In this document: positions 6,244 to 31,586 of the stretch, in pieces | How positions within the stretch are numbered: the first letter of the stretch is position 1 | How the letters are laid out: every line of letters starts with the position of its first letter | NCBI GenBank assembly: GCA_002699145.1 | Contig: PABK01000022.1 | Location: 1 to 64,000 of the forward strand | Source: Halioglobus sp. | GTDB taxonomy: Bacteria > Pseudomonadota > Gammaproteobacteria > Pseudomonadales > Halieaceae | Reading direction: 5' to 3' | DNA length: 64,000 bases | The notes under the pieces: model-generated | What the model was told of the DNA's origin: nothing | The model's input: the letters and a program-made list of their open reading frames with translations, nothing else | Database searches by the model: none | Position numbers and translations under genes: made by a program

Positions 6244-9024
6244 ATGATAGGTATAACCCGAACCGTCCTGGTGTTGCTGCTGGGTGTCCTGCTGGTCGCC
6301 TGTGGCGAGGATATGAGCAGCGAACAGCACCTGGCGAATGCGCGTCAGCTGCTCGCCCAGGACAACTACCCGCCGGCGATCGTCGAACTCAAGGCGGCGC
6401 TGAACAAGGACGCGCGGCTCGGCGAGGCCCGCGCGCTGCTCGGTCGCGCTTACTACGAGATCGGCGACGTTAACGGCGCGGAAAAGGAGTTGTCCCGCGC
6501 GCTGGAAGCCGGCAGCGAGGTGGACCGCAATCTCGTGGTACCCATCCTGGCGCAAACGCTGTTGCACATCGGTGATTACGACCGCCTGGAAGACCTCGAA
6601 CTGGAGGGCCTCAGCGGGGAGAGCCGCTCCACCACGCTGGCCGCCAAGGGGCTGGCGGTACTGTTTCGCGGTGATGTGGTGGTGGCGGAGGACATATTGC
6701 GCACCGCCACCAGCATCGAGCCGCCGTCGGCCTACGCCCGCGTGGCCGTGGCGCGACTTTCCATGGCGCGCGAGGAGTACGATCTCGCGCGCGAACAGCT
6801 GGACGCGCTGCTGGAGGAAGCGCCGGGGTACGCGCCGGCCTGGAATCTCGTCGGCGATATCGAAGCGGCCCGCCGTCGGCCAAAAAAGGCGGAAGTCGCC
6901 TATTCGCGTATCCTGAAAATAAAGCCCAATGCCTTCGATGCGCGGCTCAACCGCGCGATGATGCGCATCTACCAGAAGAACTTCAAGGGCGCGCGCAGCG
7001 ATCTCAAGGCGTTGCGGGCGCGCCAGGGCGCCGCGGCGCGCAATCATCCGGGAGTCACCTTCGCCGAGGGTATCGTGCAGATGCAGGCGGGCCTGCTGCA
7101 ACAGGCGCGCAAGTCGTTCGAGAAAACCGCGGATTTCTCCTATGTCTACCCCCTGGCCTACTACTACATGGCGGTGATAGACCTGCGCCAGGGGCAGCAC
7201 CAGCGCGCACTGACCGAGGTCTACCGTTTTCTTGCGCTGGCCCCGGAGAGTATCGCCGGACCGAAACTGGCAGCGCGGCTGGAGCTGGAACAGGAGGGTT
7301 ACGTCGCGGCCGAGACGCTGTTATTGCCCATCGTCGAGGCCTATCCCAACGATGTCGATTCGCTGAACCTGCTGGCCAGCGCACTGCTGGGCCAGGGACG
7401 GGGGGGAGAGGGCGTCGAACTGCTCGCCAGGATCGTGGAGCTGGAGCCGGACTCGGTACGCGCCAAGGCGCGGTTGGGAGCGGGTTACTTCGCCGCCGGC
7501 GAGTGGGACTCCGGTATCGCCGTGTTGCAGGACACCGTGCGTGCCAACCCCAGGTTTGAGACGGCCGACATTCTCATCGTGCTCAACCACCTGCGGCGCA
7601 ATGAAATCTACGCGGCGGTGCAGGCGGCGGAGGAATACCGCAAGCGCAAACCGGGCAGCGTCACCTCCTACAACCTGCTGGGCCGCGCCTATGTTGCCGC
7701 GGGAAAGCTGCAGCAGGCCGGCGAGGCGTTTCGCAAGGCGCTGGAGATCAGCCCGGTAGACCCCGCGGCGCGCCACGGCCTGGCCGAGATCGCCCTGCAG
7801 AAGAAACGCTTCGAGCAGGCGCGGCAGTATTACCGGCAGGTGCTCAGGTACCGCGAAAACCGCCTGGAGACCCAGCTCAAGATCGCCGCCTCCTACGCCC
7901 TGGAGGGACGCGAGCAGGAAATGATCAACTACCTGCAGCTGGCCATCGACCTGCACCCGGAGGCGACGGAGCCCGTGCTGATGCTGGCGCGCTACTACAT
8001 CGGTACGGGCCAGTTGCAGGCGGCGGAACCCCTGTTCGCCGGCTTCTCGGATACGCAACGGGAACAGCCGGATGTGCTGGCGACCCTGGCCAGCTTCCAG
8101 CTCGCCAGCAACCGCTACAACCAGGCCTTGCTGACCCTGGAGACCCTGATCGAAATCCGGCCGGGCGTTGCCCAGTACCACTACATGCGCTCCAAGGCCT
8201 ACGCCGGGCTGGGTGACAACGAGCAGATTTTCCGGGAACTGCAGCAGGCGGTGAAACTGGACCCCGACCATTTCTACGCGAAAATCGCCCTGGCCCGGCT
8301 CGCCCTGGTGTCGGGTCGCAAGGAGTTGTTCGCCGAGCGCCTGGCGGAACTGAAGGAGATGGCGCCCGAGAATCACGACGTGTTGCAGCTCGAGGTCGCC
8401 CAGGCGCAGTCCAACGGCGACCACAAGTACGCGGCCTTCCTGCTCGGCGTGATGTACCAGCAGGCGCCGACCACCAGCAACGCCATCGCCCTGGCGGAGC
8501 ACCGGCGCAAAACCGGCGAGTATCGCCTGGCGTTGAAACTCATGGAAGAGTGGGTAAAGGATCACCCGGCGGATGTGAGGGCGCGGGAAAAACTCGCCGA
8601 GCTGTACGCGCAAAAGGGCCACATGCAGTGGGTGATCGACCAGTACAGGGCGGTCGTGGAACTGGAGTCGGACAACGTGGTAGCGCTGAACAATCTCGCC
8701 TGGTACCTGCTACAGAAGGAGCCGGCGGAGGCCCTGAAGTACGCCGAGCGCGCCTACGTGCTGTCACCGCAGTCGGCATCGGTGCTGGATACGCTGGCCA
8801 TGGCCGAGTTGCACAATGGGCGGACGGTCGAGGCCCGGCGCTACCTGGAGCGCGCACTGGAACTGCTGCCGGACAATCCCGGCATCCGCTTTCACGAGGC
8901 GCAGTTGATGCTCGCCGAAGGGCGCAGCGAGGGCGCGCGGCGCACACTGTCCGAGGTGCTGCGACAGCACGGGGAATTCACCGAGCGCGACGAGGCCGAG
9001 GCCCTGCTGGAGAGCCTGCGCTAG
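6244..9024 (+). CDS. prsT: PEP-CTERM system TPR-repeat lipoprotein PrsT
   Basis: The 926-residue protein starts with a lipoprotein signal (lipobox L17-V18-A19-Cys20) and is then filled with tetratricopeptide repeats to the C terminus, visible as recurrent A..L(L)G.AY and ALE..P motifs. Length and composition match PrsT, the long TPR lipoprotein encoded with PrsK and PrsR in exosortase A genomes. It is probably anchored in the envelope as a protein-protein scaffold for EPS or PEP-CTERM export; its exact role is not established. An AGGTGGAG stretch at 6223-6230 is the likely ribosome site, somewhat far from ATG 6244. It converges with prsR, with 25 bp between the stops. Confidence 0.9.
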   Translation: MIGITRTVLVLLLGVLLVACGEDMSSEQHLANARQLLAQDNYPPAIVELKAALNKDARLGEARALLGRAYYEIGDVNGAEKELSRALEAGSEVDRNLVVPILAQTLLHIGDYDRLEDLELEGLSGESRSTTLAAKGLAVLFRGDVVVAEDILRTATSIEPPSAYARVAVARLSMAREEYDLAREQLDALLEEAPGYAPAWNLVGDIEAARRRPKKAEVAYSRILKIKPNAFDARLNRAMMRIYQKNFKGARSDLKALRARQGAAARNHPGVTFAEGIVQMQAGLLQQARKSFEKTADFSYVYPLAYYYMAVIDLRQGQHQRALTEVYRFLALAPESIAGPKLAARLELEQEGYVAAETLLLPIVEAYPNDVDSLNLLASALLGQGRGGEGVELLARIVELEPDSVRAKARLGAGYFAAGEWDSGIAVLQDTVRANPRFETADILIVLNHLRRNEIYAAVQAAEEYRKRKPGSVTSYNLLGRAYVAAGKLQQAGEAFRKALEISPVDPAARHGLAEIALQKKRFEQARQYYRQVLRYRENRLETQLKIAASYALEGREQEMINYLQLAIDLHPEATEPVLMLARYYIGTGQLQAAEPLFAGFSDTQREQPDVLATLASFQLASNRYNQALLTLETLIEIRPGVAQYHYMRSKAYAGLGDNEQIFRELQQAVKLDPDHFYAKIALARLALVSGRKELFAERLAELKEMAPENHDVLQLEVAQAQSNGDHKYAAFLLGVMYQQAPTTSNAIALAEHRRKTGEYRLALKLMEEWVKDHPADVRAREKLAELYAQKGHMQWVIDQYRAVVELESDNVVALNNLAWYLLQKEPAEALKYAERAYVLSPQSASVLDTLAMAELHNGRTVEARRYLERALELLPDNPGIRFHEAQLMLAEGRSEGARRTLSEVLRQHGEFTERDEAEALLESLR

Positions 9025-9049
9025 CGCCCTGCCGCGAGTCGGGCCCGGA

Positions 9050-10405
9050 TCAGGATTTCAGCCCCAGCCGCTCCAGCAGGTTGTACAGGGTGGGGCGGGT
9101 GATGCCCAGGACGTTGGCCGCGTCGGTAATATTCTGGTTGCAGTGATTCATGGCGCGCAGCACGGCGCGGCGCTCCGCTTCCTCGCGCACTTCCTTGAGG
9201 TTCAGCGGCATGGGTTCGGCCTCGCTCGGCGCCAGTTCCATATCCTGCGCGCCGACCTGGCTGCCATCGGCCATGATCACGCCGCGCTTGACCTTGCTTT
9301 CCAGTTCGCGCACGTTGCCGGGCCACTCGTAGGCTTCCATCGCGGCGATGGCGTCCGGCGCGAAATCCTTGACCGAGCTGTTGTACTCCTTGGCCAGCGT
9401 GTTGAGGAAGGACTTGGCCAGTACCACCACGTCGCCGTCGCGATCCTTCAACGGCGGAATCTCGATGACGATCTCGCTGATGCGGTAGTACAGGTCCTCG
9501 CGGAACTGCCCCTGTTCGATCAGCCGCTGCAGGTCCTGGTGGGTGGCGCACAGTATGCGTACGTCCACCGGTATCTCCTTGCGCCCGCCGATTCGCTCCA
9601 CCACGCGCTCCTGCAGGAAGCGCAACAGCTTCGCCTGCAGTTCCATGGGCAGGTCGCCGATCTCGTCCAGGAACAGCGTGCCGCCGTCGGCGTACTCGAT
9701 CTTCCCGGGCGTTTGCTTGGCGGCCCCGGTGAACGCGCCTTTCTCGTAGCCGAACAGTTCGGACTCGAGCAGGTTTTCCGGTATCGCCGCGCAGTTGATG
9801 GCGATCAGGGGGCCGTCGGCGCGCGGGCTCAGCTCGTGCAGTGCCTGTGCGCAGCGTTCCTTGCCGGTGCCGCTGGCGCCCAGCAACAGGGTGGTGATAT
9901 TGGAAGGGGCGATCTTCTCGATGGTCGAGCAGACCTTGAGCATTTGCGGGCTGGCGGTGATGATGCCGCGCAGCGGCATGTGCTGGTCGGTCTGCTGCAG
10001 CCGGCGATTGTCGCGTTCCAGTTCGTAGACGTGTTGCGCCCGGTCGACCAGCAGCGCCAGCAGTTCCGCGTCCGCCGGTTTCTGGTGGAAATCGTAGGCG
10101 CCCATGGCGATGGCCCTGACCGCGTTGGCGCGGTCGTCGTCGCCGGTAACGATGATGACCTTGGTTTCCGGGGCAAGGGCGAGGATTTCCGACAGCGTGG
10201 CCAGGCCCTCGCTGACGCCCCCCGGGTCCGGGGGCAGGCCCAGGTCCAGCAGCACAACGCCGGGTTGCACGCGGCGGAACTGGTTGATGGCCTCCGCCCG
10301 GTCGCCGGCGATCTCCACCTCGAAGTCCTCGAAGGCCCAGCGTAGCTGGCTCTGCAGACCCTTGTCGTCCTCGACGACCAGCAGGTACCTTTTGTCGTTT
10401 TTCAC
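9050..10405 (-). CDS. prsR: PrsR, sigma-54-dependent response regulator
   Basis: This 451-residue NtrC-family regulator has a receiver domain (about 1-125, phosphoacceptor Asp54 in VVLLDLG), a sigma-54-interacting AAA+ domain (Walker A GASGTGKE, the GAFTGA loop that contacts sigma-54, and TLFLDEIGD) and a Fis-type helix-turn-helix at the C terminus (ITDAANVLGITRPTLYNLL). The start is GTG at 10405 with AGGGTGGGA upstream. It lies 35 bp after prsK in the same operon. PrsR is the cognate regulator of PEP-CTERM gene transcription with RpoN in exosortase bacteria, and a sigma-54 promoter is present before the PEP-CTERM gene at 56590. Confidence 0.93.
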   Translation of the reverse strand: MKNDKRYLLVVEDDKGLQSQLRWAFEDFEVEIAGDRAEAINQFRRVQPGVVLLDLGLPPDPGGVSEGLATLSEILALAPETKVIIVTGDDDRANAVRAIAMGAYDFHQKPADAELLALLVDRAQHVYELERDNRRLQQTDQHMPLRGIITASPQMLKVCSTIEKIAPSNITTLLLGASGTGKERCAQALHELSPRADGPLIAINCAAIPENLLESELFGYEKGAFTGAAKQTPGKIEYADGGTLFLDEIGDLPMELQAKLLRFLQERVVERIGGRKEIPVDVRILCATHQDLQRLIEQGQFREDLYYRISEIVIEIPPLKDRDGDVVVLAKSFLNTLAKEYNSSVKDFAPDAIAAMEAYEWPGNVRELESKVKRGVIMADGSQVGAQDMELAPSEAEPMPLNLKEVREEAERRAVLRAMNHCNQNITDAANVLGITRPTLYNLLERLGLKS

Positions 10406-10440
10406 GCTATTCCCACCCTGGATATCCCTTCTGTCATGTG

Positions 10441-12564
10441 TCAGACCGCCCCGTTCATGTCCGGTATGCGTACGCTGAACAGCGACCCCTGTCCCGGGGC
10501 GCTGCGCACGCTGATGTCCCCCCCCAGGCTGCGAATGAAGTCGCGGCTCTCGAAGGCCCCTATACCCATGCCGGTCAGGCCCTTGGTGGAGTCAAAGGGC
10601 TTGAACAGGCGGTTCTGTATGAACTGCTCGTCCATACCTTCGCCATCGTCCTCGATGTCCACCACCGCACAGCCGTTGTGCCTGCGCAGGCTCACGGAGA
10701 CCTTGCCCTCCTTGCCGGTAGCGTCCTGGGCGTTGTGAATCAGGTGTCCGAAGACCGCATGCAGGCGCTCGCGGTTGCACAGCAGTCGATACCCGTCATG
10801 CTGCGGCGTGTAGCTCGGCGCGGGATCGCGCACCTTGCACTCCGCCACGACCTCGCCCAGCAGCTCGGACAGGTCGAACTCCTGCTGCTCGGCCTGGCCT
10901 GCGCCACTGCGCAGTTGCGCCATCAGTTTGGTCATGCGGGTGACGGAATTGCTCACCGTGCCGACCATGTCCTCGATGAACTCCGGATTGTGCTTGTGTT
11001 TTTCCGCGTTGGCGACCATTAGTGACAGTTGTGCAAGGATATTTTTCAGGTCGTGGATCACGTAGGCGGAAAGGCGGTTGAAGGCCTCGAACTGCCGCGA
11101 CTCCACCAGGGCCTGGTCTGACTGGTACTGCGCCAGGTGGGTCGCGGCCTGGCGACCCGCCACCTTGAGCAGGTCGCGGTCCTCCCAGTTGAGCTCACGC
11201 AACAGTTCGGATTCGCGCAGCAGCACGATGCCTTCCAGGCGTTCGCCGAACAGCAGGGGAATGATCAGCCAGCTGCGGGGAACCCGCGTTATCAGCTTTG
11301 GCAATTCGAGGTTGCGATAGAGGTCCGGTGACTGTCGCCATTCGCGCAGGTCGATGATCCACTGGTGTTGCGCCAGCCACTGGGGCAGCGTGCCCAGGCC
11401 GGCGTTCTCGCCCGGGTCCGGCATTTCCCAGCGCGCCGCCAGCGAGTAATGATTGCCCTCGCTCCTGGCCCACAACAGCCCCGCGGGGCTCTTCGCCAGG
11501 TCGGCAATCGCGCAGGTGATGTTCAGCGGCACGTCGGCGTCGCCGCTGGCCAGCGTCTGGGTGAACTGCAACCACTCCATGCGGTAGTCGTACTTGTAAC
11601 TGAAAAAGTTCTTGCTCAGCCAGACACGCGTGCGCGCGCGAATCTGGCCGGAAAACAGCAGCACAGCGAGCACCAGTCCGGCGGCGCAGAGGAACGCGAT
11701 TTGCAGTACGCCGCCCCAACTGCCGCCCAGGTAGCGTATGAAGTAGGCGGCGAGCGCCATGCAGATGAGGTAGATCCCGGAGGCCATCAGCGTCAGTGAA
11801 TGGAAGGCGACGTGGCGCGACAGGTAGAGGCTGCGTGTCGCCGGCTGGGGCTCCTCGCGCTCCGTGCGGCTCAGGCTTACCGCCATGAGGATCGCGCCCA
11901 TGGTGATCACCACGCCGCGCGCCTGCCAGAGGTTGGCGTCCAGTTGTCGAAACAGCAGCGCCTCGGCATACATAAAGAAGTCGTAAGCGAACAGGATGCC
12001 CAGGCCGACGCACAGGTGTTTGCTGGACCACAGTTCGTTTTCGTTGCTGTTGCGGAAAAATTGTTCCAGCAACAGCAGGCCCAGTACGCTCATCGCCAGC
12101 CAGGCGCTGAAGGTGAGGTTCAGCGAGGTGCCCAGCGACAGCCCCAGGGCATAGGCGAAGGGGCCCGCCGCCAGCAGCAGGGCGGTCAGCAGGGCGAAAC
12201 CGACCAGGAACAGCGGCACCCAGCGCGACCCCGCCAGGATGTGGCGGGTGCCCTGCAGGCGCAGGCCAACCAGTCGCAACAGCGCGTAGGTCCAGCCGGC
12301 GTTGCGCCCGAGTTCGGTCAGCTGCATGAGTGCTACCAGTGGCTCGGCGAGCAGTGTGGATGCGGTGACCGCACCGGCCCACAGCGCGGTCAGGGCGGCC
12401 GCGCAGAGCAGGGCGTTGCCGGCCGGGTGGTAGCGCCTGTTGAACAGGGCGATGCCGGTGAGCGCGATGTAGGCGAGCAGGGCTGCACCGTAGCTGTACA
12501 AGCCGATATTGGTGAGAATGCTGGTGTCTGCCCCTGGTGCCAAAGTATCCAAAGCGTGTACCAA
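10441..12564 (-). CDS. prsK: PrsK, PEP-CTERM system histidine kinase
   Basis: The 707-residue kinase has a multi-helix membrane domain (about 25-320), a GAF-like segment (about 340-480), a dimerisation/H-box region with the PrsK-type HDLKN motif (YVIHDLKNILAQL) and a C-terminal ATPase domain (IHNAQDAT N box, DDGEGMDE and GMGIGAFESR G boxes). This architecture matches the PEP-CTERM-associated kinase PrsK. It should phosphorylate PrsR, encoded 35 bp downstream. The start is uncertain: TTG at 12564 is used here, with GTG at 12561 as an alternative. The gene diverges from the wbpP-like gene across a 146-bp AT-rich region that probably holds both promoters. Confidence 0.9.
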   Translation of the reverse strand: MVHALDTLAPGADTSILTNIGLYSYGAALLAYIALTGIALFNRRYHPAGNALLCAAALTALWAGAVTASTLLAEPLVALMQLTELGRNAGWTYALLRLVGLRLQGTRHILAGSRWVPLFLVGFALLTALLLAAGPFAYALGLSLGTSLNLTFSAWLAMSVLGLLLLEQFFRNSNENELWSSKHLCVGLGILFAYDFFMYAEALLFRQLDANLWQARGVVITMGAILMAVSLSRTEREEPQPATRSLYLSRHVAFHSLTLMASGIYLICMALAAYFIRYLGGSWGGVLQIAFLCAAGLVLAVLLFSGQIRARTRVWLSKNFFSYKYDYRMEWLQFTQTLASGDADVPLNITCAIADLAKSPAGLLWARSEGNHYSLAARWEMPDPGENAGLGTLPQWLAQHQWIIDLREWRQSPDLYRNLELPKLITRVPRSWLIIPLLFGERLEGIVLLRESELLRELNWEDRDLLKVAGRQAATHLAQYQSDQALVESRQFEAFNRLSAYVIHDLKNILAQLSLMVANAEKHKHNPEFIEDMVGTVSNSVTRMTKLMAQLRSGAGQAEQQEFDLSELLGEVVAECKVRDPAPSYTPQHDGYRLLCNRERLHAVFGHLIHNAQDATGKEGKVSVSLRRHNGCAVVDIEDDGEGMDEQFIQNRLFKPFDSTKGLTGMGIGAFESRDFIRSLGGDISVRSAPGQGSLFSVRIPDMNGAV

Positions 12565-13742: not shown

Positions 13743-13778
13743 CTTACGGGTGCAATCAGGGGGCAGAGCTGAATCACC

Positions 13779-15101: not shown

Positions 15102-16199
15102 CTACGCCTGGGTTTCTTCCGGGTCGCCGTCGCCGCGGCGCATCCACGCCTTGCGCAGCAGGTGCGGCAGCAGCAGGTACAGCGGCATGCGCAGGTAGTG
15201 GGAACGGATGTAGAGCATGTTCAGCGCGGCCGCGGTCAGCGGCAGCCGGCAGTCCGGGTGATCGGGGCGGAAGGCGCGCAGGAACAGGAAGTCCATCAGC
15301 GGGCGCCGCAGCCGCTGCGCCAGCGTGGTGGCGCGCTCCATGACCCGCCCCGGTACCGGTGTGCCGAACACCAGCTGCGCGTACACCAGCCCGTGAAACA
15401 GCGATTCCTGTAGTTCCAGTTGCCTGGCGCGCTCCACCAGGCCGTCCCAGAAATCCGCCTGCTCGGCGGGGAACTGGCGCAGCATCCGGTCCAGGTCCCA
15501 CAGGTCGCGCAGGCCGTGGTAAAACTCCCCCTCGTGAAACAGGTGGGTCGCGCTGTGGATCACCATGTCCTGCAGGGACAGTGTGAACACGCCGGGCCGC
15601 GCCGTGCGCAGCCGCTCGAACAGCAGGCTGGCGTCGACGTTCGGGCCGGCGGTTGGCGGCAGTATATTGTGGTGCAGGTCCAGGGTGGTGCCGCGTTTGC
15701 AATGTACGAGCGCGGGTGTCTCGTGACTCCAGCGCCGGTAGTAGCTCTCGTTGTAAGGGTCCAGCTTGCTGCTTTCCCAGCCGTGGGCATTCAGCGCCTG
15801 CTCCGCCGCCTCGATGCGCTCGCGCGGCACGATGATATCGATATCGGTGATGAGTCGACCGCGCGCTACCGGCAGCTCCGCCTGCAGGTAGGCGCCGCCC
15901 TTGAGCAACACCAGCTTTTCGCCCACCGACTCCAGCGCCGCGCGGATCGATTCGCAGTCATAGGCCAGGTCCTGCTTTTGCTTTTCGTACACCAGCACCG
16001 CGGAGTCCAGGTGACGTCGCACCGCCGGGTCCACGCGCTCGAGGTCGCCGCTGTCCTGCATTGCCATGGCGAGGGAGGCGAGCAGGCGGCTGACGCGCGC
16101 CTGGCTGACCACGCGCGCCGCGCCGGCCATGTCCATGCCGGGCAGCGCGCCGGGGTCGAGCAGCGCGGTGAGCAGTTCGAAGTCCGGCGCCCGTCTCAT
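15102..16199 (-). CDS. Nucleotidyltransferase-family protein of the HPr-rel-A cluster
   Basis: The 365-residue protein belongs to the uncharacterised nucleotidyltransferase family (PF14907 type). It has LVLLKGGAYL, the metal-binding RLITDIDIIVP acid triad region and LDLHHNI. The family recurs beside HprK-like kinases and PqqD-like proteins, including in lasso-peptide tailoring clusters. Its substrate here is unknown. ATG at 16199 was chosen because it overlaps the kinase stop by 4 bp (ATGA), showing translational coupling; a longer upstream frame inside the kinase gene is a shadow. It is last in its operon. Confidence 0.8.
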   Translation of the reverse strand: MRRAPDFELLTALLDPGALPGMDMAGAARVVSQARVSRLLASLAMAMQDSGDLERVDPAVRRHLDSAVLVYEKQKQDLAYDCESIRAALESVGEKLVLLKGGAYLQAELPVARGRLITDIDIIVPRERIEAAEQALNAHGWESSKLDPYNESYYRRWSHETPALVHCKRGTTLDLHHNILPPTAGPNVDASLLFERLRTARPGVFTLSLQDMVIHSATHLFHEGEFYHGLRDLWDLDRMLRQFPAEQADFWDGLVERARQLELQESLFHGLVYAQLVFGTPVPGRVMERATTLAQRLRRPLMDFLFLRAFRPDHPDCRLPLTAAALNMLYIRSHYLRMPLYLLLPHLLRKAWMRRGDGDPEETQA

Positions 16200-17101
16200 G
16201 CCAGCACCTTCTCCATGGCCTGCACCGCCCAGTCGAGGTCGCGGTAGACCAGGTCGTAGCAGGGTACGGAGGACACCAGGTGGCGCATGGCGTGGAAACC
16301 GGCCTCGCCCATGAGACTGTAATTGAACGAGTGGTAGGCGGCGATGATGAAGCTTTCGCTGCGCGGGCGCGGGCGCAGGTACTGGCCGTCCCCGGCGCTG
16401 TAGCGCGGAAAGACCAGCGCGCGGGCGGGCAGGGGGGCCGGGTCGTGGCTGTCCGTTGTCAGGTCGGCCTTCATATGGCAGACCACGCCCTTGTGCGTTT
16501 CCAGGCTGACCGGCCCGAACACCGCGTCCCGGGAAAAGGCGCGCACGACATCGATACTCGCGTTTTTCAGGCTGACCGGCCGGCACAGTGGCACCAGGTC
16601 GGTGGTGTGCGGCACCACCAGGGCGTGTTCATCCGAGAGAATGCGCCAGCCCTGCAGTCCGAGGGCGGCGCACAGGGTGCTTTTCCCCGCGCCGGGGGTG
16701 CCGGGAAGAATGACGCCGGCGCCTTCCCTGGCCACGACCGCGGCGTGCAGCTTCAGGTACTCGTTGGCGTGGAGCGAGACGCACCAGTTCATGCCCCACT
16801 CCAGGAACGCGTAGGCCTGGCCAGCGGGAATGGTTTCGAAAGGACTGGCCCTGTCGAAGAGGAATTCGGCCCGGCCGCGCAGGCGTTGCAGGGGCGAGCC
16901 GCGCACCAGGGCGACGTCGTAGTCGACGAACTGCTGCGGTGTGGCCAGGAGAAAATCGCCGTACAACGCGCGCAGGCCCTGCGCCACCGCCGGCAGGTCG
17001 CTGTGGATGTTGTAGACATAGGGGCCGACGCGTACCGGCAGGTCGCCGGCGGCCAGCCGCCGGTGGAAGTCGCTTGTGGACAGCTCCCCCAGGCGTTGCA
17101 T
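16196..17101 (-). CDS. HprK-related kinase A
   Basis: The 301-residue protein has a P-loop at residues 134-142 (GTPGAGKST) within a domain resembling the C-terminal half of HPr Ser kinase/phosphorylase: LKLHAAVVAREGAG..LPGTPGAGKST and RILSDEHALVV. It lacks the normal HPr partner context and matches HprK-related kinase A, which is always found with a PqqD-like protein. The target may be a peptide, a small protein or a sugar; this is unknown. ATG 17101 overlaps the stop of the PqqD-like gene by one base. The longer frame to 17158 would overlap that gene and is less likely. Confidence 0.85.
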   Translation of the reverse strand: MQRLGELSTSDFHRRLAAGDLPVRVGPYVYNIHSDLPAVAQGLRALYGDFLLATPQQFVDYDVALVRGSPLQRLRGRAEFLFDRASPFETIPAGQAYAFLEWGMNWCVSLHANEYLKLHAAVVAREGAGVILPGTPGAGKSTLCAALGLQGWRILSDEHALVVPHTTDLVPLCRPVSLKNASIDVVRAFSRDAVFGPVSLETHKGVVCHMKADLTTDSHDPAPLPARALVFPRYSAGDGQYLRPRPRSESFIIAAYHSFNYSLMGEAGFHAMRHLVSSVPCYDLVYRDLDWAVQAMEKVLA

Positions 17102-17370
17102 CAGGCCTGTTGCACCACATCCAGGGCGACCAGTTCCGCCATCACCTCGTTCACCCATTCCTCCAGCCCTGTCGATTCGGCCGGGTCGATGACGTCGGCG
17201 GCGCGCGCGACCAGCGCGCCGGTGTCCAGCGGCCCCTCGGCCAGCTGCTCTATCAAATAGGCGGCAAAGCTGCTGATCAGGTGGGTATCCCCGCTGCGCC
17301 GGTCGAAGTAAATCACGGAGCTCTCACCGGCATCGTATATGTGCCCCGCGGCCTGCACCCGCCATTTCAT
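17101..17370 (-). CDS. HPr-rel-A system PqqD-family peptide chaperone
   Basis: This 89-residue protein has the winged-helix PqqD/RRE-like pattern: an early beta sheet (IYDAGESSVIYFDRRSGDTHLIS) followed by helices (SFAAYLIEQLAEG...VNEVMAELVALDVV). PqqD-like domains bind leader peptides and deliver them to modifying enzymes. Its tight coupling to the HprK-like kinase and the nucleotidyltransferase suggests that the cluster acts on a peptide or small protein. The gene just upstream at 17455-17853 is the nearest candidate substrate. That link is inference. Confidence 0.82.
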   Translation of the reverse strand: MKWRVQAAGHIYDAGESSVIYFDRRSGDTHLISSFAAYLIEQLAEGPLDTGALVARAADVIDPAESTGLEEWVNEVMAELVALDVVQQA

Positions 17371-17454
17371 AGCACTGGAGCTTGTTCCGGAGTGGGAAGG
17401 TATTATTTCAGAAGGCGCCGGGCGTCGCTACCGCCGGGCGTCCCGGGCGGCAGG

Positions 17455-17853
17455 TCAGTCGGGACAACGACCCTTGACCAGGCAGACGCCGTCGAACGAA
17501 TCCGGATCCTCGCAGACCCGCCACCTGCCGTCGCGGCCGATATAGTCCGGCGGGTCGCCGATGCGGTGGATGGCCGCGGCGAGTTCCTCGTTGTGATCCG
17601 GGCGACCGGCGGGGGCCGAGATGAACATGCCCGTCTCGGGGTTGAAGGAATTTACCGTCATCACCGACATACAGCCCGCGATCTGGGTGCCTCCGCCCCA
17701 GGCGGCGCGGTTGCCAAGCGAGAAGATGACGGCGCCACCAGCGACCGCGGCGCGTGAAAAGCGGCGACGGGAGAGATTGGCCGGAGGCGTGTGAACAGGT
17801 TCACCTGGGCTGCCAGCGGCTCCTTCGCGGCGATGTTCGTCTGATCTGTCCAA
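17455..17853 (-). CDS. Small protein with Tat-like signal and Cys-containing tail, possible HPr-rel-A substrate
   Basis: Not recognised as a named family. The frame encodes a twin-arginine-like segment NLSRRRFSRAAVAGGAVIFS, then a roughly 75-residue domain with four cysteines (AGCMS, RVCED, DGVCLVKGRC) ending in RCPD. It could be exported folded by Tat or act as a precursor peptide. The start is uncertain: TTG at 17853 has GGGGG upstream, while GTG at 17886 would add 11 residues. It is first in the minus-strand run, 84 bp before the PqqD-like gene. A CRP-like palindrome lies 150 bp upstream. A substrate role is a guess from position and Cys content. Confidence 0.55.
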   Translation of the reverse strand: MDRSDEHRREGAAGSPGEPVHTPPANLSRRRFSRAAVAGGAVIFSLGNRAAWGGGTQIAGCMSVMTVNSFNPETGMFISAPAGRPDHNEELAAAIHRIGDPPDYIGRDGRWRVCEDPDSFDGVCLVKGRCPD

Positions 17854-18215
17854 GTCAACCCCCAATAAAACTGTCCACCGCAACACGGGTTTGCGCCCGG
17901 CTGCTCACTACCCGGTGGAGAGACATTGCCTCCCTGTCATGGTAGCCGATACCGATGACTTTACCACCGTCACCGCACCACTGACACCTGCTTGTCCGGT
18001 GTCTGTGACCCGAATCACAGTTGCGTGGAGGGCGGTGCTGCGTATGGAGATGCAAGTTGCATACCCAAATTGGAAATAAGTCTTTATAGACAAGGGGTTA
18101 CGAAATTCCGTCATGTCAGCCGATATGCCCTGCAGGCATAACTGTGCCGGGTTTGTAAAGAAACCTGACGAGGCCTGGCGGGGCGGGGCGCCCCGGCCGT
18201 GTGTGAAAGTGTGGA
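17854..18215. other. Non-coding region before the HPr-rel-A operon
   Basis: These 362 bp hold no convincing gene. They are less GC-rich than their surroundings and contain the CRP-like palindrome at 18003-18020. A GGGGCGCCCC palindrome at 18185-18194 lies just past the stop of the small membrane protein at 18216. Confidence 0.6.
18003..18020. promoter_or_regulatory. CRP/Vfr-like palindrome
   Basis: CTGTGACCCGAATCACAG contains the exact TGTGA-N6-TCACA consensus of CRP-family regulators. It lies about 150 bp upstream of the HPr-rel-A operon start on the minus strand. Two further sites with the same half-sites occur at 20839 and 56329. Confidence 0.6.
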
Positions 18216-18596: not shown

Positions 18597-20783
18597 ATGT
18601 ACGAGGTGTTCTACAATCTAAAGGCTGAACCGTTCCGGTTGAGTCCCGATCACCGCTTCTGTTACGAACACAAGGGTTATGCCCGGGCGCGTGCCTATAT
18701 GGCCTACGCCTTCATGCGCGCCGAGGGGTTCGTCATGATCACCGGGCGTCCCGGCACCGGCAAGACCACGCTGATCGGCGAACTGGTGGAGAGCCTGGCG
18801 CGGGACAACGTGCATACCGCCAACCTCGTGTGTACCCAACTGCAGGCGGACGACCTGTTGCGCACGGTGGCCTACAGCTTCGGTGTCGGCGCCGACGGCG
18901 TCGACAAGGCGGAACTGCTACAGCGCCTCAATGTGCAGTTTCACCGCTGGCACCGCGACGGGCGCCGCGCCCTGCTCATCGTCGACGAGGCCCAGGACCT
19001 GTCGCCCTCGGCGATGGAGGAACTGCGCCTGCTGACCAATATCCAGCAGAACGGGCAGCCGTTGTTGCAGATCTTCCTGCTCGGGCAGCCGGAGCTGCGC
19101 GACCTGGTGCTGTCGCCGGAAATGGAACAGGTCCACCAGCGCATCGTCGCCGCCAGCCACCTGGACGGGCTGGAGGAGGACGAGGTCGAGACCTATGTGC
19201 TGCACCGCCTGAGAAAGGTCGGCTGGCGCGGTGACCCGGCGATCAGTCGCGGCGTGTTTCCCCTGCTGCACAAGTTCAGCGAGGGCGTGCCGCGACGCAT
19301 CAACCTGATCTGCAGTCGTCTCTTCCTGCACGGCGGGGTGGAGCAGCGCCATGCCATCGAGATCGACGATGTGCGGGTGGTCATCAGCGAGCTGCAGGCG
19401 GAGAACCTGGCGGCGGGTACGCGCATCACCGAGGATGACTTCGCCAGTGCCAGGCATACCGGTTGGGCCGAAGTGCCGCGCGACCCGGCCGAGGCAACGG
19501 TCGCGCCTGCCGAACCGCCGCCGCAACCGCAACCACCGCCGGCGGAGGACAAACCGCGTGCCGGCGTACGGCTGCGCGCGGTGGGTGGTGAAACTGCCGG
19601 CCATGGCGATGCTCCCCGGCCCCCTTCCAGCGAGGGGCCGGCAAAAAAAAAAGAAGTAAGCCCCGCGCGCCCACAGACGCGCCCGACCGGGACGGCAGCT
19701 GAGGCCCGCGCGGTTCCGCTGCGCGAAGCGGATACCGACACCACGCCCGACCCCCGCCTGGCGGCTGAGCCGCGGGACGATGTGGCGCCGGTGGATTTTC
19801 CGCCGGCAGATCCCGCACCGGCCAACGATCCTGTGCAGGCGGCCTCCGCCGGACGCGCGACGGATGGCACGGCCCGGCCCGCTGCGGCCGCGGCGCGGGC
19901 CGGGGGGCCGCGGTCGGCGCATCGCGCCGCGAGTTCGCGGCGCACCGCCACCCTGATCGCCTTCGCGCTGATACTGCTATTGGGCCTGGCCGGCGTTTTC
20001 CTGCCGCCGTTGCTGCTCGACAACAGCGATCCCTGGAGTGACCCGGACAACCTGCTGCCGCCGCGCGAGGAATTCGAGCCCTTGGGCGAGACCACCCCGG
20101 AAGCGACCCCGCCCGCGCAGGAAAGCGGCGACCCGGCATCGCCGGCAAACGCCGCGGCCGAGGCGCCTGCAGCGCCTGCCACTGTCGGTGAGTCCGCGGC
20201 CGCGATCGCCGGCGCCGGCGCGCTGGATGAGCAGGCGGACGCCGTGGAGCCGGGCGCCGCGCGGTATGACGGCGGCGTGTCGTCCACTCCCGCTGCCGGG
20301 CAGGGGGTTCCGCCGCTGGCCGGAGAAACCCCACCGCGGGCGAGCACGGCCGACGCGGATGGCGACGTGGCGCCGCTCGATGTCCCGGCGTCCCCGGCGC
20401 CCGCTGCCGCGGAGCCAGCGGCCGGTGACCTGACCTTGCTGGTGCGCTTTTCCTTTGACAGCGCCGAGCTCGATGAACGCGCCATGGCCGTGCTGGACGA
20501 GGCCGGCCGTATCATGGCGCGCGAAACGGGCAGCCGGGCGACGATTACCGGCTACTCGGATAGCGTGGGAGAAGATACGTACAACGTCGACCTGTCCCTG
20601 CAGCGGGCGCGCGCGGTGGAGCGGTACCTGGCCGCCGCGGGGCTGGCCGCCGGACGACTCGAGGTGGCGCAGGGCGGGTTCCCGTCCAGCGCAGACTACC
20701 CGGCCGCGGACGGCCGCGGCACAGACATGGCGCCGCAGCGTATCGTGCGGATCACGATAGATCGAGGCGGGGAGCGGGAGTAA
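18597..20783 (+). CDS. XrtA-associated AAA ATPase fused to an OmpA-type domain
   Basis: The first 280 residues are an ExeA-like AAA ATPase of the exosortase A-associated family: the characteristic MYEVFYNLKAEPFRLSPD start, Walker A GRPGTGKTT (50-58) and Walker B LLIVDEAQ (Asp130, Glu131). A long Pro/Ala-rich linker follows, then a membrane helix (about 448-472), another low-complexity linker and a C-terminal OmpA-like peptidoglycan-binding domain (about 610-728; VRFSFDSAELDERA, ITGYSDSVGEDTYNVDLSLQRA). At 728 residues it is about twice the usual family length. The layout places the ATPase in the cytoplasm and the OmpA domain in the periplasm. Confidence 0.88.
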   Translation: MYEVFYNLKAEPFRLSPDHRFCYEHKGYARARAYMAYAFMRAEGFVMITGRPGTGKTTLIGELVESLARDNVHTANLVCTQLQADDLLRTVAYSFGVGADGVDKAELLQRLNVQFHRWHRDGRRALLIVDEAQDLSPSAMEELRLLTNIQQNGQPLLQIFLLGQPELRDLVLSPEMEQVHQRIVAASHLDGLEEDEVETYVLHRLRKVGWRGDPAISRGVFPLLHKFSEGVPRRINLICSRLFLHGGVEQRHAIEIDDVRVVISELQAENLAAGTRITEDDFASARHTGWAEVPRDPAEATVAPAEPPPQPQPPPAEDKPRAGVRLRAVGGETAGHGDAPRPPSSEGPAKKKEVSPARPQTRPTGTAAEARAVPLREADTDTTPDPRLAAEPRDDVAPVDFPPADPAPANDPVQAASAGRATDGTARPAAAAARAGGPRSAHRAASSRRTATLIAFALILLLGLAGVFLPPLLLDNSDPWSDPDNLLPPREEFEPLGETTPEATPPAQESGDPASPANAAAEAPAAPATVGESAAAIAGAGALDEQADAVEPGAARYDGGVSSTPAAGQGVPPLAGETPPRASTADADGDVAPLDVPASPAPAAAEPAAGDLTLLVRFSFDSAELDERAMAVLDEAGRIMARETGSRATITGYSDSVGEDTYNVDLSLQRARAVERYLAAAGLAAGRLEVAQGGFPSSADYPAADGRGTDMAPQRIVRITIDRGGERE

Positions 20784-20838
20784 TGCGGGCGCCTTGCAGG
20801 CCGCGCCAGTGCTCGCTTTGACCGCCTCCGGGTATCTC

Positions 20839-20854
20839 TGTGACGTTGTTCACA
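20839..20854. promoter_or_regulatory. CRP/Vfr-like palindrome before the EPS export operon
   Basis: TGTGACGTTGTTCACA is an exact TGTGA-N6-TCACA dyad 91 bp before the export-protein start at 20945. It is one of three such sites in the window, each next to a transcription unit of the exosortase/EPS system. Confidence 0.65.
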
Positions 20855-20861
20855 ATGTTCA

Positions 20862-20886
20862 CCGGTGGCGCAATAGTGGCCACCGG
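20862..20886. promoter_or_regulatory. 8-bp inverted repeat in the leader of the export gene
   Basis: CCGGTGGC (20862-20869) and GCCACCGG (20879-20886) are exact reverse complements around a 9-nt spacer, directly downstream of the CRP-like site. It could be an operator or an RNA hairpin. A TGG-N11-GC pattern inside it weakly resembles a sigma-54 promoter, but the -12 side (TGGC) is poor. Confidence 0.4.
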
Positions 20887-20944
20887 CAGCGTGTTAGACT
20901 TTTGAAATAACAGGGCGCCTACCTGCCCCATAGGAGAGTAAAAG

Positions 20945-21598
20945 ATGACAGTTCATTCTGCGCAAATCGGTATCGGCATCCGGGTGAGGGGCGTCCTGTT
21001 CGCGGCGTTGGCCCTGTTGCTCAGCCTTGCGGTTGGGTGTGGTTCCACTCCCTACCCGCACGTGCCCGAGTCGCAGCGCAATGTCGACGTGGATTACGAC
21101 TATGTCCTGGGTCCCGGTGATACGGTGAGCATCTTCGTCTGGGGTAACGAAGAACTCAGCTCCAGTGGCACGGTACGACCGGACGGCAAGCTCACCACGC
21201 GCCTGGTGGAAGACCTGCAGGCGAGCGGCAAGACGTCGACGCAACTGGCGCGTGATATCGAGAGCGCGTATTCGGAGTATGTGCGCCAGCCCGTGGTCAG
21301 CGTCATCGTCAGCGGCTTTTCCGGTGTTCCGGACCAGACCGTGCGCGTGCTGGGCGAGGCGACCAACCCGAAACGCGTGCCGTACAAAAAGCACATGACG
21401 CTGCTGGACCTGATGATCGCGGTCGGTGGCCTCACGCCCTACGCGGACGGCAACGGGTCGGTGTTGGTGCGCATGGTCGAGGGCAAGCAGATGACCTACG
21501 CGCTGCGCCTGGACGACCTGGTTCGTGACGGCGACATCACCGCCGACCTGGCGCTGATGCCGGGCGACATTCTCATCATTGCCGAATCCTGGTTCTAG
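20945..21598 (+). CDS. XrtA/PEP-CTERM polysaccharide export lipoprotein (Wza/OPX family)
   Basis: The 217-residue protein has a lipoprotein signal with a VGCGS lipobox. A polysaccharide-export (Poly_export) domain begins at VDVDYDYVLGPGDTVSIFVWG, followed by SLBB-like segments (QTVRVLGEATNPKRVPYKK...TLLDLMIAVGG). This matches the export protein of exosortase A loci. It is shorter than Wza and so forms the periplasmic/outer-membrane collar that works with a separate barrel, perhaps the protein at 24404. AGGAGAG lies 8 bp before the ATG. It starts the core export operon. Confidence 0.9.
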   Translation: MTVHSAQIGIGIRVRGVLFAALALLLSLAVGCGSTPYPHVPESQRNVDVDYDYVLGPGDTVSIFVWGNEELSSSGTVRPDGKLTTRLVEDLQASGKTSTQLARDIESAYSEYVRQPVVSVIVSGFSGVPDQTVRVLGEATNPKRVPYKKHMTLLDLMIAVGGLTPYADGNGSVLVRMVEGKQMTYALRLDDLVRDGDITADLALMPGDILIIAESWF

Positions 21599-21635
21599 AC
21601 CAGGCCTGCGGGGGCAATCGGGGGTAAAGGGGTAA

Positions 21636-23252
21636 ATGCAGGAAGTTCTTGCTCAACTGTTTTCCTACGCCTGGGGCGTCTGGAAGCACCGCTGGCTGGC
21701 GCTCGCCGTGGCCTGGGTGGTCGCCATTGGTGGCTGGATCTGGGTATGGCAGCTTCCGGAGGCCTATGTCGCCAGCGCACGCGTCTACGTCGACACCAAC
21801 AGTGTGCTGCGCCCACTGCTGCAGGGCCTCGCCGTGCAGCCGAACGTGGAAAGTCGCATCGGGCTGCTCAGCCGTACCCTGCTGTCGCGGCCCAACCTGG
21901 AGAAGCTGATGCGCATGACCGACCTGGACCTGCAGGTGGTCACCGCAAAGGAAAAGGACCAGCTGCTCAACGACCTGCAGAAATCCATCCGGCTCTGGGC
22001 GAACCAGAAGGACAGGTCCCTGTATTCGATTTCCGTGCAGGACCCGGACCGCGACACGGCCAAGCGCATCGCCCAGGCGTTGATTACGGTGTTTATCGAG
22101 AGCTCCCTCAGCGGCAAGCGCGAGGACAGTTCCGGCGCACAGGACTTCCTCGACGAGCAGATCAAGGAGTACGAGGCTCGCCTGATTGCCGCGGAAACCC
22201 GTTCGGCCAACTTTCGCCAGAAACACATGAAAATTCTCGGCGGCAAGGGCGGTTACTACCGCAACCTGAACAGCGCCAGGACGCGCCTGCGCCAGGCGCA
22301 GCTCATGCTCAAGGAAGAGGAAAACCGGGTGGTGGACCTGCAGCGGCAGATCGACGGCGAGGATCCGCTGTACGTGCCGCCGCCGACGCCGCAGGTAGCC
22401 AGCCAGGCGCCGCGCACTATCAGCCGCGCGCCGACCGCTGTCGACCAGCAGATCATGTCGATCCAGGCGAACCTGGCGGACCTGCAGGTCAGGTACACCA
22501 ACCGCCATCCCGAGGTGCGACAGTTGCAATCGCTGCTGGCGGACCTGCAGGCAGAGAAAGCGGCGGAGGAGCGCGCCGCGATGGAGCGCCTGCGGCAGAT
22601 TAACGAAAAACGCCGGAAGGGCGAGCCCGTCGACCAGTTCGGGGACCTGTCGGGCATGGCCAACAGCCCGGTGTATCTCAACCTGAAAAAAATGCTGGCC
22701 GAGACCAAGTCGAAGGTCGCTGCGCTGAAAGTACGGGTGAAGGAATACCGCGAGCAGGTTGCGGAACTGGAAGAGAAGGTCAACACCATCCCCGAGGTGG
22801 AGGGCCAGTTGAAGCAGCTGGACCGCGATTACGGGGTTATCCGCAGCCAGCACGCGGCACTGCTGAAGCGGCGTGAAACGGCGCGCATGGGGCAGGATAT
22901 GGAGCAGAAGGCCACGGACGTCACCTTCCGTGTCATCGACCCGCCCTATGTGCCGCTCAAGCCCTCGGAGCCGAACAAGATCATGCTGAACGCGATCGTG
23001 CTTGCCGGCGCCCTGGTGGCGGGTATTGGCGTCTCGTTCCTGGTCTCACTGGTGTACCCGGTGTTCTTCGATTCCCGCACGCTGGCGGCGGTTACCGGCC
23101 TGCCGGTACTGGGATCGGTCACCATCAATTTGCAGAACGAACAGCGCAGGCGAGAGCGCTACGGGCTGGTTGCCTTTGCGTCATTGGCCGTGTGCTTGCT
23201 GTTCGCGTATGCGGGAATGACTCTTGGCGCCGGTGGTTTGCCGTGGAGCTGA
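21636..23252 (+). CDS. XrtA-associated chain-length determinant (Wzz/PCP family)
   Basis: This 538-residue protein has an N-terminal membrane helix (about 19-38), a Wzz domain containing [19 protein letters not shown], a long coiled-coil periplasmic region (about 160-400), a Pro-containing second Wzz segment ([16 protein letters not shown]) and a membrane helix near 450-475, with a further C-terminal hydrophobic segment. It matches the exosortase A family of polysaccharide co-polymerases that set chain length together with a tyrosine kinase. The kinase is the next gene, 60 bp downstream, as in split Wzz/Wzc systems. Confidence 0.9.
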
Positions 23253-23312
23253 AGGCGCAGGCAGCCGCGCCCATAATGATAAGCAGGGACGAATTGAACG
23301 TCGGGACTGGAC

Positions 23313-24407
23313 ATGAGCATCATTGAGAAAGCGGTCAGCGCGCTGGGCAAGGGCGGTGACGCGGAAAACAGCGCAAAGGACAGCACCGTTCCCGCGGCGC
23401 CATCGGCGGACGAGGCGAGTACCGTGGAGCGCGCCGCCGGTGATGCTGCCGAACCTGGCGTGGAGCCGGGTGCAGGCGCGAACGAGGCGGCGGAACAGGG
23501 GGCAGCAAGTGCGGTAGAGCGCGCGCCGGCGCCGGCAGCGCCTGTCATGCAGCCGCGCAGGCGCAGTGAAGCGGTGGAGGCCAACGCGCCCTACGGTGAC
23601 GGCAATCGTCGCCAGGATGTCGCCACCATTACGCGCGACAAGTACATCAAGCTGCATTTCGAGGACTTGCGCCAGATGGGCATCCTCACCCCGTCGGTAC
23701 CGCGTAGCGCTATCGCCGAGGAGTTTCGCACCATCAAGCGCCCGCTGCTGACCAATATCGCCGGCGACGACCTGACTCCCCCGATCAAGCAGGGTAACCT
23801 GATCATGGTCACCAGCGCGCTGGAGGGCGACGGCAAGACCTTCACCTCCATCAGCCTGGCCATCAGTATCGCCATGGAGCAGGACAAGACCGTACTTTTC
23901 GTGGACGCGGACACGGCCAAGGCCGAGGCAGGTCGCGTACTGGGCATTCCTTCCGACTGTCCGGGCCTGATCGATGTGCTGGAAGGCCGCGATACCCAGT
24001 TGTCGGATGTCATACTCCATACCAATATCGACAAGCTGCGCATACTGCCCGCGGGCGACCTGCACACGCATGCCAATGAATTGCTGGCCAGCGAGCGCAT
24101 GCGCCAGCTGATGATGGAGATGTCCGAGCACTACTCGGACCGCGTACTGGTGTTTGATTCGCCGCCCCTGCTGCTTACCACTGAAGCGTCCGTGCTGGCC
24201 AGTTTCATGGGCCAGATCGTGTTCGTGGTCAGCGCAGACATGACGCCGCAACACGCCGTCACCCAGGCCATCGAGCACATCGGCGAGGACAAGATGGTCG
24301 GCATGGTGTTGAACCGCGCGCGCCGTCGCACCAACCCATACTACTATACTTACGGCGAGGTCTATGGTTACGGTCGCGACCGGGATTCGGGAGGAGAGAT
24401 TGTATGA
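23313..24407 (+). CDS. XrtA-associated tyrosine autokinase (BY-kinase)
   Basis: The 364-residue cytoplasmic kinase has a variable Ala/Glu-rich N terminus (about 1-90), then a BY-kinase domain: EEFRTIKRPLL, Walker A (residues about 168-178, EGDGKTFTS), Walker A' (VLFVDADT) and Walker B (VLVFDSPPLLL). A C-terminal tyrosine cluster (YYYTYGEVYGYG) provides autophosphorylation sites. It should couple to the co-polymerase encoded just before it. The LMW-PTP domain encoded at 42826 is a possible opposing phosphatase. The stop overlaps the start of the next gene by 4 bp. Confidence 0.92.
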   Translation: MSIIEKAVSALGKGGDAENSAKDSTVPAAPSADEASTVERAAGDAAEPGVEPGAGANEAAEQGAASAVERAPAPAAPVMQPRRRSEAVEANAPYGDGNRRQDVATITRDKYIKLHFEDLRQMGILTPSVPRSAIAEEFRTIKRPLLTNIAGDDLTPPIKQGNLIMVTSALEGDGKTFTSISLAISIAMEQDKTVLFVDADTAKAEAGRVLGIPSDCPGLIDVLEGRDTQLSDVILHTNIDKLRILPAGDLHTHANELLASERMRQLMMEMSEHYSDRVLVFDSPPLLLTTEASVLASFMGQIVFVVSADMTPQHAVTQAIEHIGEDKMVGMVLNRARRRTNPYYYTYGEVYGYGRDRDSGGEIV

Positions 24408-25882: not shown

Positions 25883-25894
25883 GGACTGTCTCAC

Positions 25895-27019: not shown

Positions 27020-27885
27020 ACGCCGCGAACAGCGCCGCGATTTCGCCGCTCAATGCGATGACAGTGGATGTCGAGGACTACTTCCAGGTGTCGGCGTTCG
27101 AAGGGCATGTGACACGGCAACAGTGGCAGACCCTGCCGCACCGCGTGGACGACAATACCCGGCGCATTCTCGACCTGTTTGCCGAGCACGATCTGCGCGC
27201 GACGTTTTTCACCCTGGGCTGGGTGGCGGAGCAGTTTCCGGACCTGGTGCGCCAGGTGGCCGCGGCCGGGCACGAGGTGGCCAGTCACGGCTGGCAGCAC
27301 ACCCGGGTCAACACCCAGACGCCGGCGCAGTTCCGTGAGGATATAGAGCGCACCCGCGCCCTGCTGCAGGACCTCAGCGGCCAGCCGGTTTTCGGCTACC
27401 GCGCGGCCAGCTATTCCATCGGCCGCGAGCAGGCCTGGGCCTGGGACGAACTGGCCGCGGCGGGGTATCGCTACAGTTCCAGCATCGTGCCCATTCGGCA
27501 CGACCTGTACGGTATTCCCGATGCGCCGCGCTTCGCCTTCGATACCGCCGGTGGCCGCCTGCTGGAAATCCCGGTCACCACGGTGCCGCTCGCCGGCCGC
27601 AATATCAACTGTGGTGGTGGCGGCTGGTTCCGCCTGTTTCCCTACGCCTTCTCCCGCTGGGCGTTGCGCCGGGTGAACCACGGGGATGGCCAGTCCGGTA
27701 TTTTCTACTTTCACCCATGGGAGATCGACCCCGCACAGCCGCGGCCCGAGGGTCTGGGGGTGAAAACGCGTTTCCGCCATTACCTCAACCTGTCGCGGAC
27801 CTACGGGCGTCTGCAGAAGCTGTTGCGCGATTTCCGCTGGGGACGCATGGACGAGGTCTTCCTGGACAAGGACCTGTCGCAATGA
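27016..27885 (+). CDS. XrtA-associated polysaccharide deacetylase with DUF3473
   Basis: This 289-residue NodB-type deacetylase begins with TVDVEDYFQV (Asp18 and Asp21 region) and has HEVASHGWQHTRV supplying the metal His pair, RAASYSIG and a C-terminal DUF3473 segment with GGWFRLFP and FYFHPWEID. It matches the exosortase A-associated deacetylase family, expected to remove N-acetyl groups from EPS sugars. ATG 27016 overlaps the wecB stop; the longer frame starting inside wecB is a shadow. The stop overlaps the FemAB start by 4 bp. Confidence 0.92.
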   Translation: MNAANSAAISPLNAMTVDVEDYFQVSAFEGHVTRQQWQTLPHRVDDNTRRILDLFAEHDLRATFFTLGWVAEQFPDLVRQVAAAGHEVASHGWQHTRVNTQTPAQFREDIERTRALLQDLSGQPVFGYRAASYSIGREQAWAWDELAAAGYRYSSSIVPIRHDLYGIPDAPRFAFDTAGGRLLEIPVTTVPLAGRNINCGGGGWFRLFPYAFSRWALRRVNHGDGQSGIFYFHPWEIDPAQPRPEGLGVKTRFRHYLNLSRTYGRLQKLLRDFRWGRMDEVFLDKDLSQ

Positions 27886-28913: not shown

Positions 28914-28917
28914 GCCG

Positions 28918-31583: not shown

Positions 31584-31586
31584 AGT

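Follow-up and report, generated by a model that had tools for sequence, protein, structure and literature searches.

The subject of this study is a set of four genes in a 64,000-nucleotide stretch of DNA from Halioglobus sp. (Halieaceae; contig PABK01000022.1), hereafter called the window. The genes lie consecutively on the minus strand and encode a protein with a twin-arginine translocation (Tat) signal, a PqqD-like protein, an HprK-like kinase and a nucleotidyltransferase of family PF14907. The first of these is called the precursor below, and its residues are numbered in a 143-residue open reading frame (ORF); kinase residues follow the protein P0003. RiPP stands for ribosomally synthesized and post-translationally modified peptide. 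The features are:

17455..17886, minus strand: Tat-signal precursor, the candidate substrate; 143-residue ORF from GTG at 17886, likely start TTG at 17853.
17695..17772, minus strand: twin-arginine signal SRRRFSRAAVAGGAVIFSLGNRAAWG, recognised in the sequence; R40 and R41 are invariant in profile A2 (see below), whose rows were chosen for RR.
17647..17673, minus strand: C72-x-S74-x5-S80 stretch after the signal, the proposed acceptor Ser region, from invariance in profiles A2 and A5 (see below).
17101..17370, minus strand: predicted PqqD-like RiPP recognition element (RRE), TIGR04353, 41.9 bits against a cut-off of 35 bits.
About 16196..17101, minus strand: HprK-related kinase A, TIGR04352, 330.9 bits against a cut-off of 200 bits.
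15102..16199, minus strand: nucleotidyltransferase, PF14907, E 3.4e-51.

The preliminary description had placed these genes here, the last three with overlaps of 1-4 bp. On the minus strand, the PqqD-like stop indeed overlaps the kinase start by 1 bp (TGATG) and the kinase stop overlaps the nucleotidyltransferase start by 4 bp (ATGA); 84 bp separate the stop of the Tat-signal ORF from the PqqD-like start. By eye, TTG 17853 matches the starts of orthologues better than GTG 17886. The twin-arginine-like signal and the four Cys noticed earlier in the upstream protein were found again: SRRRFSR is followed by a hydrophobic stretch, small residues stand at the likely cleavage site, and the Cys are C72, C125, C135 and C141. 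Read in this way, the protein has the features of a Tat substrate, and the genome contains a TatC gene. The sequence ends in CPD, with Asp as the final residue, and has no hydrophobic C-terminal sorting helix. The Tat signal models of Pfam and NCBIfam stayed below cut-off on the precursors scanned, and no Pfam or NCBIfam family exceeded its cut-off on the window precursor or on ten others. A scan for sigma-70 promoters and terminators gave nothing above shuffled sequences.

The kinase and the adjacent PqqD-like protein, both above cut-off and next to a PF14907 gene, make the cassette a member of HPr-rel-A. NCBIfam names TIGR04352 'HprK-related kinase A' and TIGR04353 'HPr-rel-A system PqqD family peptide chaperone'; the nucleotidyltransferase is presumably the third gene of this system. 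The family names give no substrate, and the Tat partner has no family. The system had been put forward as possibly undescribed; the cassette proves to have a name already, one that does not yet cover the partner. In the open-access literature, with subscription papers and preprints outside the scope of the search, we found no paper naming HPr-rel-A, TIGR04352, TIGR04353, 'HprK-related kinase' or 'PqqD family peptide chaperone', and none of the papers listed by searches that combined RiPP and Tat with exosortase, HPr kinase and PqqD gave an account of the system. The same genome encodes a second HprK-like kinase (C4:291693-292205, locus L002; a frame of 404 residues that scores 44.6 bits with TIGR04352).

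Does the Tat-signal protein regularly go with the cassette? Among 140 genomes of the same family, TIGR04353 was matched in 40 (27 above cut-off) and TIGR04352 in 53 (34 above cut-off). The TIGR04353-based set comprised 30 loci including the window; 28 were usable, having a TIGR04353-type gene and enough upstream sequence, and L016 and L032 were left out on account of a contig end or of a match below cut-off with a different PqqD. A short twin-arginine ORF was seen by eye directly upstream in 28/28. Counted by kinase, 28 of 30 loci had the precursor; L045 and L054 had no precursor ORF in the mere 443 and 49 bases that precede the kinase. Profile A2, made of 20 Halieaceae-type precursors with rows from the family genomes tested or the window, gave 24 matches in 23 of the 140 genomes, 23 at the cassette and one, weak, elsewhere; other genera of the family have precursor types beyond its reach.

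The association was also seen in a sample of 369 genomes of the class, 41 of which have a TIGR04352 kinase above cut-off. A Tat-signal precursor lies directly upstream in 40 of these 41, 38 recognised with profile A3 (45 precursors, 15 rows from the class genomes tested and 30 from the named loci described below) and two by inspection. The three kinase genomes lacking an A3 match are these two, whose upstream Tat precursors are divergent, and one in which the contig begins 265 bp before the PqqD gene. Of 54 A3 matches in the class sample, 38 were less than 2.5 kb from an over-cut-off kinase, on the same strand and all on its upstream side, and among the matches with E below 1e-20, 29 of 30 were at the kinase. 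When matches that include the signal are counted, 38 genomes have both precursor and kinase, 6 the precursor only, 3 the kinase only and 322 neither (Fisher p 8e-42); the 6 precursor-only genomes are those of the short-peptide loci discussed below.

A species collection scanned with 16 kinases yielded at least 586 confirmed relatives, and 80 loci, mostly of Proteobacteria, were kept (the named loci). The precursor adjoins the cassette in 78 of these 80, upstream in 65 (all at E 1e-5 or better with A3) and downstream of the nucleotidyltransferase in 13, three of which have two copies; the downstream precursor of L117 is a weak match in a 75-residue ORF. Loci that first seemed precursor-free mostly had a downstream precursor, and in some loci with none upstream the cassette stands beside a putative prmC or hslV gene, as judged by eye rather than by family search. 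Among the 10898 ORFs of the named loci, 79 matched A3 at E <=1e-5; a script placed 78 of them beside the cassette, and the 79th, in L121, was scored 'elsewhere' only because the kinase ORF had been read too long. L126 has no precursor beside its cassette, the contig ending soon after the nucleotidyltransferase; a search of its genome gave two precursor-like places on another contig and one large frame. Profile A5, made of 43 named-locus precursors with the window precursor and its close loci L062-L071 left out, found one place in the whole genome of the window, 17659-17802, which is the window precursor (E 4.7e-5). Of all 169 loci examined, 157 contain a recognisable PqqD-like ORF and 165 a same-strand nucleotidyltransferase near the kinase. 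That the precursor switches sides yet is kept argues for a functional tie, and the Tat-signal protein is a regular fourth member of HPr-rel-A. The substrate role had earlier been assigned from position only, with co-occurrence named as a point on which it could fail; the protein does co-occur with the three genes, so that this assignment now has strong comparative support, in two gene orders.

The model of the window PqqD-like protein had a pLDDT of 95. Compared with PDB folds by Foldseek, its top three matches were RREs of lasso peptide B1 proteins (probability 1.00, TM 0.64-0.71, E 3.6e-3 to 7.8e-3), in structures solved with the leader peptide. Next came enzymes from further RiPP pathways, heterocyclases among them; such enzymes carry RRE domains. 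A sequence search of the PDB gave designed helical proteins as best matches and lasso B1 proteins at E 0.12 and weaker. Judged by its model, the PqqD-like protein is predicted to fold like the leader-binding lasso B1 proteins. The kinases keep H138, K159, D176 and E177 in 133/133 sequences, and the sequence search gave HPr kinase at E 0.0026. The nucleotidyltransferases keep K100, G101, D119 and D121 in 157/157 and D174 in 154/154 aligned; their matches in the PDB by sequence were at chance level only. From these alignments, the predicted catalytic residues of both enzymes are intact.

The precursors themselves are far more variable. We assembled 112 non-redundant ones, chosen for an RR signal, so that RR counts hold by construction; one of them, from L090, had been chosen in error, since the true precursors of that locus lie downstream, and it was dropped from the sigma-54 and twin-Arg-to-Cys counts. 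No mature residue is better conserved than the Cys that follows the signal, present in 109 of the 112; a Ser 11 residues further (L168 numbering) is found in 98. In A5, where mean column identity is 21%, one signal Arg, C58, S61, S65 and C76 are invariant in 43/43; in A2, C72, S74, S80 and C135 are invariant in 20/20, plus signal residues. C58, S61 and S65 are the counterparts of the window C72-x-S74-x5-S80 stretch. Many precursors share the motif C-x-x-S-G-x-x-S-G-N-x-S followed by a Pro-Gly-Tyr-Trp-Lys stretch, which the window type, with its C-x-S-x5-S, does not have; the types have the signal and the Cys-Ser stretch in common. A search of papers for PGYWK-like motifs returned unrelated papers only. 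The ORFs are 74-302 residues long, all but one of them at least 127. A model of the L120 precursor (mean pLDDT 77.7) has a confident, helical C-terminal part and found no PDB fold match below E 4. A sequence search of the PDB with the precursor gave matches at chance level only. A lipobox was considered for the Cys after the signal and rejected on inspection, because its distance from the twin Arg varies (25-50 residues, median 29). The conserved Ser after the signal, rather than the Cys of the tail, looks like the site of a modification.

Some A3 matches have no signal part and lie in frames of up to 1352 residues, where the C-terminal domain of the precursor occurs away from the cassette (for example G154:C37, locus L225; G219:C1; G223:C6). 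At the other extreme, a 74-residue precursor stands before an HPr-rel-A cassette (L165:787-1011, L223); its mature part would be about a dozen residues long and end in SACISCNASLI.

Through weak A3 matches we came upon 13 Tat peptides, 57-87 residues long and spread over nine loci (L210-L218, L226-L229). All 13 have, by eye, Gly-Ser within a few residues after the signal and then a variable tail; Cys is entirely lacking from some of them. Within the stretch examined, five of the nine loci contain an HprK-like kinase that scores under the TIGR04352 cut-off, three a PqqD protein (PF05402) and one a PF14907 protein. Profile A7, built from these peptides, matched in 22 of the 369 class genomes and, weakly, also large precursors at HPr-rel-A cassettes (e.g. 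G325, G477, G261). Since A7 reaches the large precursors, the leaders of the two groups look related. Peptides so short can hardly be enzymes, which strengthens the reading of the precursor as a substrate and points to Ser. These loci represent a sister system with peptide-sized precursors.

Taken together, it is probable that HPr-rel-A is a four-part system in which the Tat-signal protein is both the missing part and the substrate, and which works by RRE presentation, Ser phosphorylation, a nucleotidyltransferase step, Tat export and a role at the surface. The gene association, the family conservation, the RRE-like fold of the model, the intact catalytic residues and the link to exosortase A genomes are observations; the substrate role, the site, the order of the steps, the final group, the export and the surface role are what we infer from them. 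The PqqD-like RRE would bind the precursor in the cytoplasm and present it to the kinase and the nucleotidyltransferase. The kinase would phosphorylate at least one conserved Ser after the signal, near the mature N-terminus, and the nucleotidyltransferase would add a nucleotidyl or sugar group onto the Ser phosphate. The modified precursor would then be exported by the Tat pathway and work at the cell surface with exopolysaccharide (EPS), perhaps as an anchor or primer. A modification on Ser, with phosphate first and a further group after it, is the most likely mechanism.

Among studied relatives, the linear polyphosphorylated peptides (LPP) of Bacillota, described in 2026 (PMC13381572), are at least as close as paeninodin. 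LPP clusters, first noticed in capsule loci, comprise an RRE, an HprK-like kinase, a nucleoside triphosphate (NTP) transferase, an SpI-like peptidase and a transporter, and the residue that LppK phosphorylates is Ser3 after the cleavage site (PMC13381572). The discrete RRE, the HprK-like kinase, the NTP transferase, the polysaccharide loci and, as the probable target, a Ser near the mature N-terminus are common to both. LPP clusters employ a leader peptidase of SpI-like type together with an MsbA-like transporter, and their leaders carry YxxP, whereas the system described here belongs to Proteobacteria and has a Tat signal, mostly larger precursors and a [Y/W]xxP motif in only 2 of the 112 precursors, looked for in as many as 45 residues ahead of RR. 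Neither an SpI-like peptidase nor an MsbA-like transporter is among the four operon genes, and the genome was not searched for them. Because [Y/W]xxP is rare, the Tat signal replaces an operon peptidase and transporter, and the precursors are mostly larger, we do not file the system as LPP.

Several points weigh against the four-part system as proposed. The addition of phosphate or a nucleotide to the precursor is itself inferred chemistry, and in the published LPP test deletion of the nucleotidyltransferase brought no visible change (PMC13381572). None of the fold matches of the PqqD-like model reached an E below 1e-3. The motif of the lasso kinases is reported as His-Lys-Asp-Asp (PMC9266682), whereas His, Lys, Asp and Glu are the invariant residues here; the last residues of the two sets may or may not correspond. 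The [Y/W]xxP leader motif, to which the RREs of lasso and LPP pathways bind, is nearly absent. L133 has a kinase with no precursor beside the cassette and no PqqD gene recognised (a search of its genome gave one match, lacking the signal part, at a contig start), and four of the nine short-peptide loci have no kinase in the stretch examined. Finally, A2 and A3 share rows with the genomes on which they were tested.

What else might the cassette do? The kinase and the nucleotidyltransferase could act on a sugar, a lipid or another small molecule for EPS, with the Tat protein as a functional partner rather than a substrate. We regard this as unlikely, and it draws on the genomic context of the window, where the cassette lies in an XrtA EPS locus (features assigned by NCBIfam matches):

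18597..38250, plus strand: XrtA/PEP-CTERM EPS locus (exosortase A, export and chain-length genes).
6244..12564, both strands: PEP-CTERM regulatory system, with PrsT on the plus strand and PrsR and PrsK on the minus strand.

Moreover, XrtA exceeds its cut-off in 35 of the 41 cassette genomes of the class sample, as against 38 of the 328 others (Fisher p 1e-22). The leader-binding RRE-like fold, however, implies a peptide substrate; the precursor is kept in two gene orders, 12 of the 13 downstream-order loci having no EPS marker other than PrsR in the stretch examined (some stretches are short); and the only partner in the sister loci is a short Tat peptide. In the 53 loci whose flanks each extend over at least 9 kb, EPS markers stood near the cassette in 31 when the unspecific PrsR is included and in 22 without it, and XrtA itself was in none of them within the stretch. 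The earlier suggestion of a modifying system inside an EPS locus fits the window, though elsewhere cassettes occur apart from any recognisable EPS genes.

It is also conceivable, with a smaller probability, that the precursor is modified at another site or by another route: on the conserved Cys, or through nucleotidylation with no phosphate step. The near-invariance of the Cys after the signal speaks for such a modification. The described lasso and LPP kinases act on Ser (PMC9266682, PMC13381572), and in pseudomycoidin PsmK and PsmN put a phosphate and then a hexose on Ser (PMC9266682); Gly-Ser is retained in the short sister peptides, several of which lack Cys.

Very unlikely is a RiPP pathway, of the lasso type or another that makes small peptides, in which a core is cut from the precursor. 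The preliminary description had likened the cassette to the paeninodin kind, and the PqqD-like protein, HprK-like kinase and NTP transferase are indeed the tailoring set of paeninodin-type clusters (PMC13381572, PMC9266682), with LPP at least as close. Paeninodin and pseudomycoidin share the HprK-like kinase, the nucleotidyltransferase and a PqqD-like B1 protein with the system here; their modified Ser is C-terminal, whereas the window precursor ends in Asp (PMC9266682). The absence of a lasso protease, noted before for the locus, extends to the whole genome, where the B2 leader protease family PF13471 has no match, and none of the four operon genes encodes a lasso cyclase. In a scan of 20 window proteins the single Asn-synthetase-like one (31587-33488) is the XrtA amidotransferase (1064 bits), which scores 245 bits against the lasso cyclase model, below its cut-off of 525. 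As neither B2 protease nor cyclase was found, a lasso cluster was rejected; the size of the precursors and the confident C-terminal domain modelled for L120 speak against any small core. That the four genes are chance neighbours has a negligible probability, being refuted by the co-occurrence counts in the class sample and the named loci.

Returning to the four-part system, a wider proposal is possible, though on balance doubtful: guided by the RRE, a phospho-sugar or phospho-nucleotide would be placed before export on a Ser near the start of Tat-exported proteins, so that these carry, prime or anchor EPS, and together with the short Gly-Ser peptides they would form a class of Tat-coupled, phospho-modified exports. 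The literature searched held no description of Tat-coupled phospho-modified exported peptides or proteins as a class. A cassette named by NCBIfam without a substrate now has one consistent candidate and candidate acceptor residues. If this candidate is right, leader recognition of the RiPP type extends to entire proteins exported by Tat, cytoplasmic phosphate chemistry is linked to the export of folded proteins, and there is a handle on the unexplained tie between such kinases and polysaccharide loci in Bacillota and Proteobacteria.

Sigma-54-type sites were sought with at most one mismatch to the motif TGGCAC-N5-TTGC. They occur within 300 bp before the RR codons of 30 of 110 precursor genes (e.g. 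L006, L042, L095). The corresponding counts were 0 for the opposite strand and 4 for the interior of the kinase gene, and shuffled sequences averaged 1.0; the window precursor gene has no such site within one mismatch. The likeness to the PEP-CTERM/exosortase A system (PMC1569441) lies in the shared locus of the window, in the presence of exosortase A in most cassette genomes and in the sigma-54-type sites before many precursor genes, the difference being the hydrophobic C-terminal sorting helix that the window precursor does not have.

Further observations concern the surroundings of the cassette. Adjoining it on the other strand, 12711-15089 encodes a sugar-nucleotide epimerase and a dehydrogenase whose best NCBIfam matches are TviC and TviB, below cut-off. 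At 18597-20783, a single ORF joins an XrtA-associated ATPase (TIGR03015, 312.5 bits against a cut-off of 324.5) to an OmpA-like C-terminal region. Elsewhere in this genome, C47:4443-5210 holds another exosortase-like gene, whose score stays under the XrtA cut-off.

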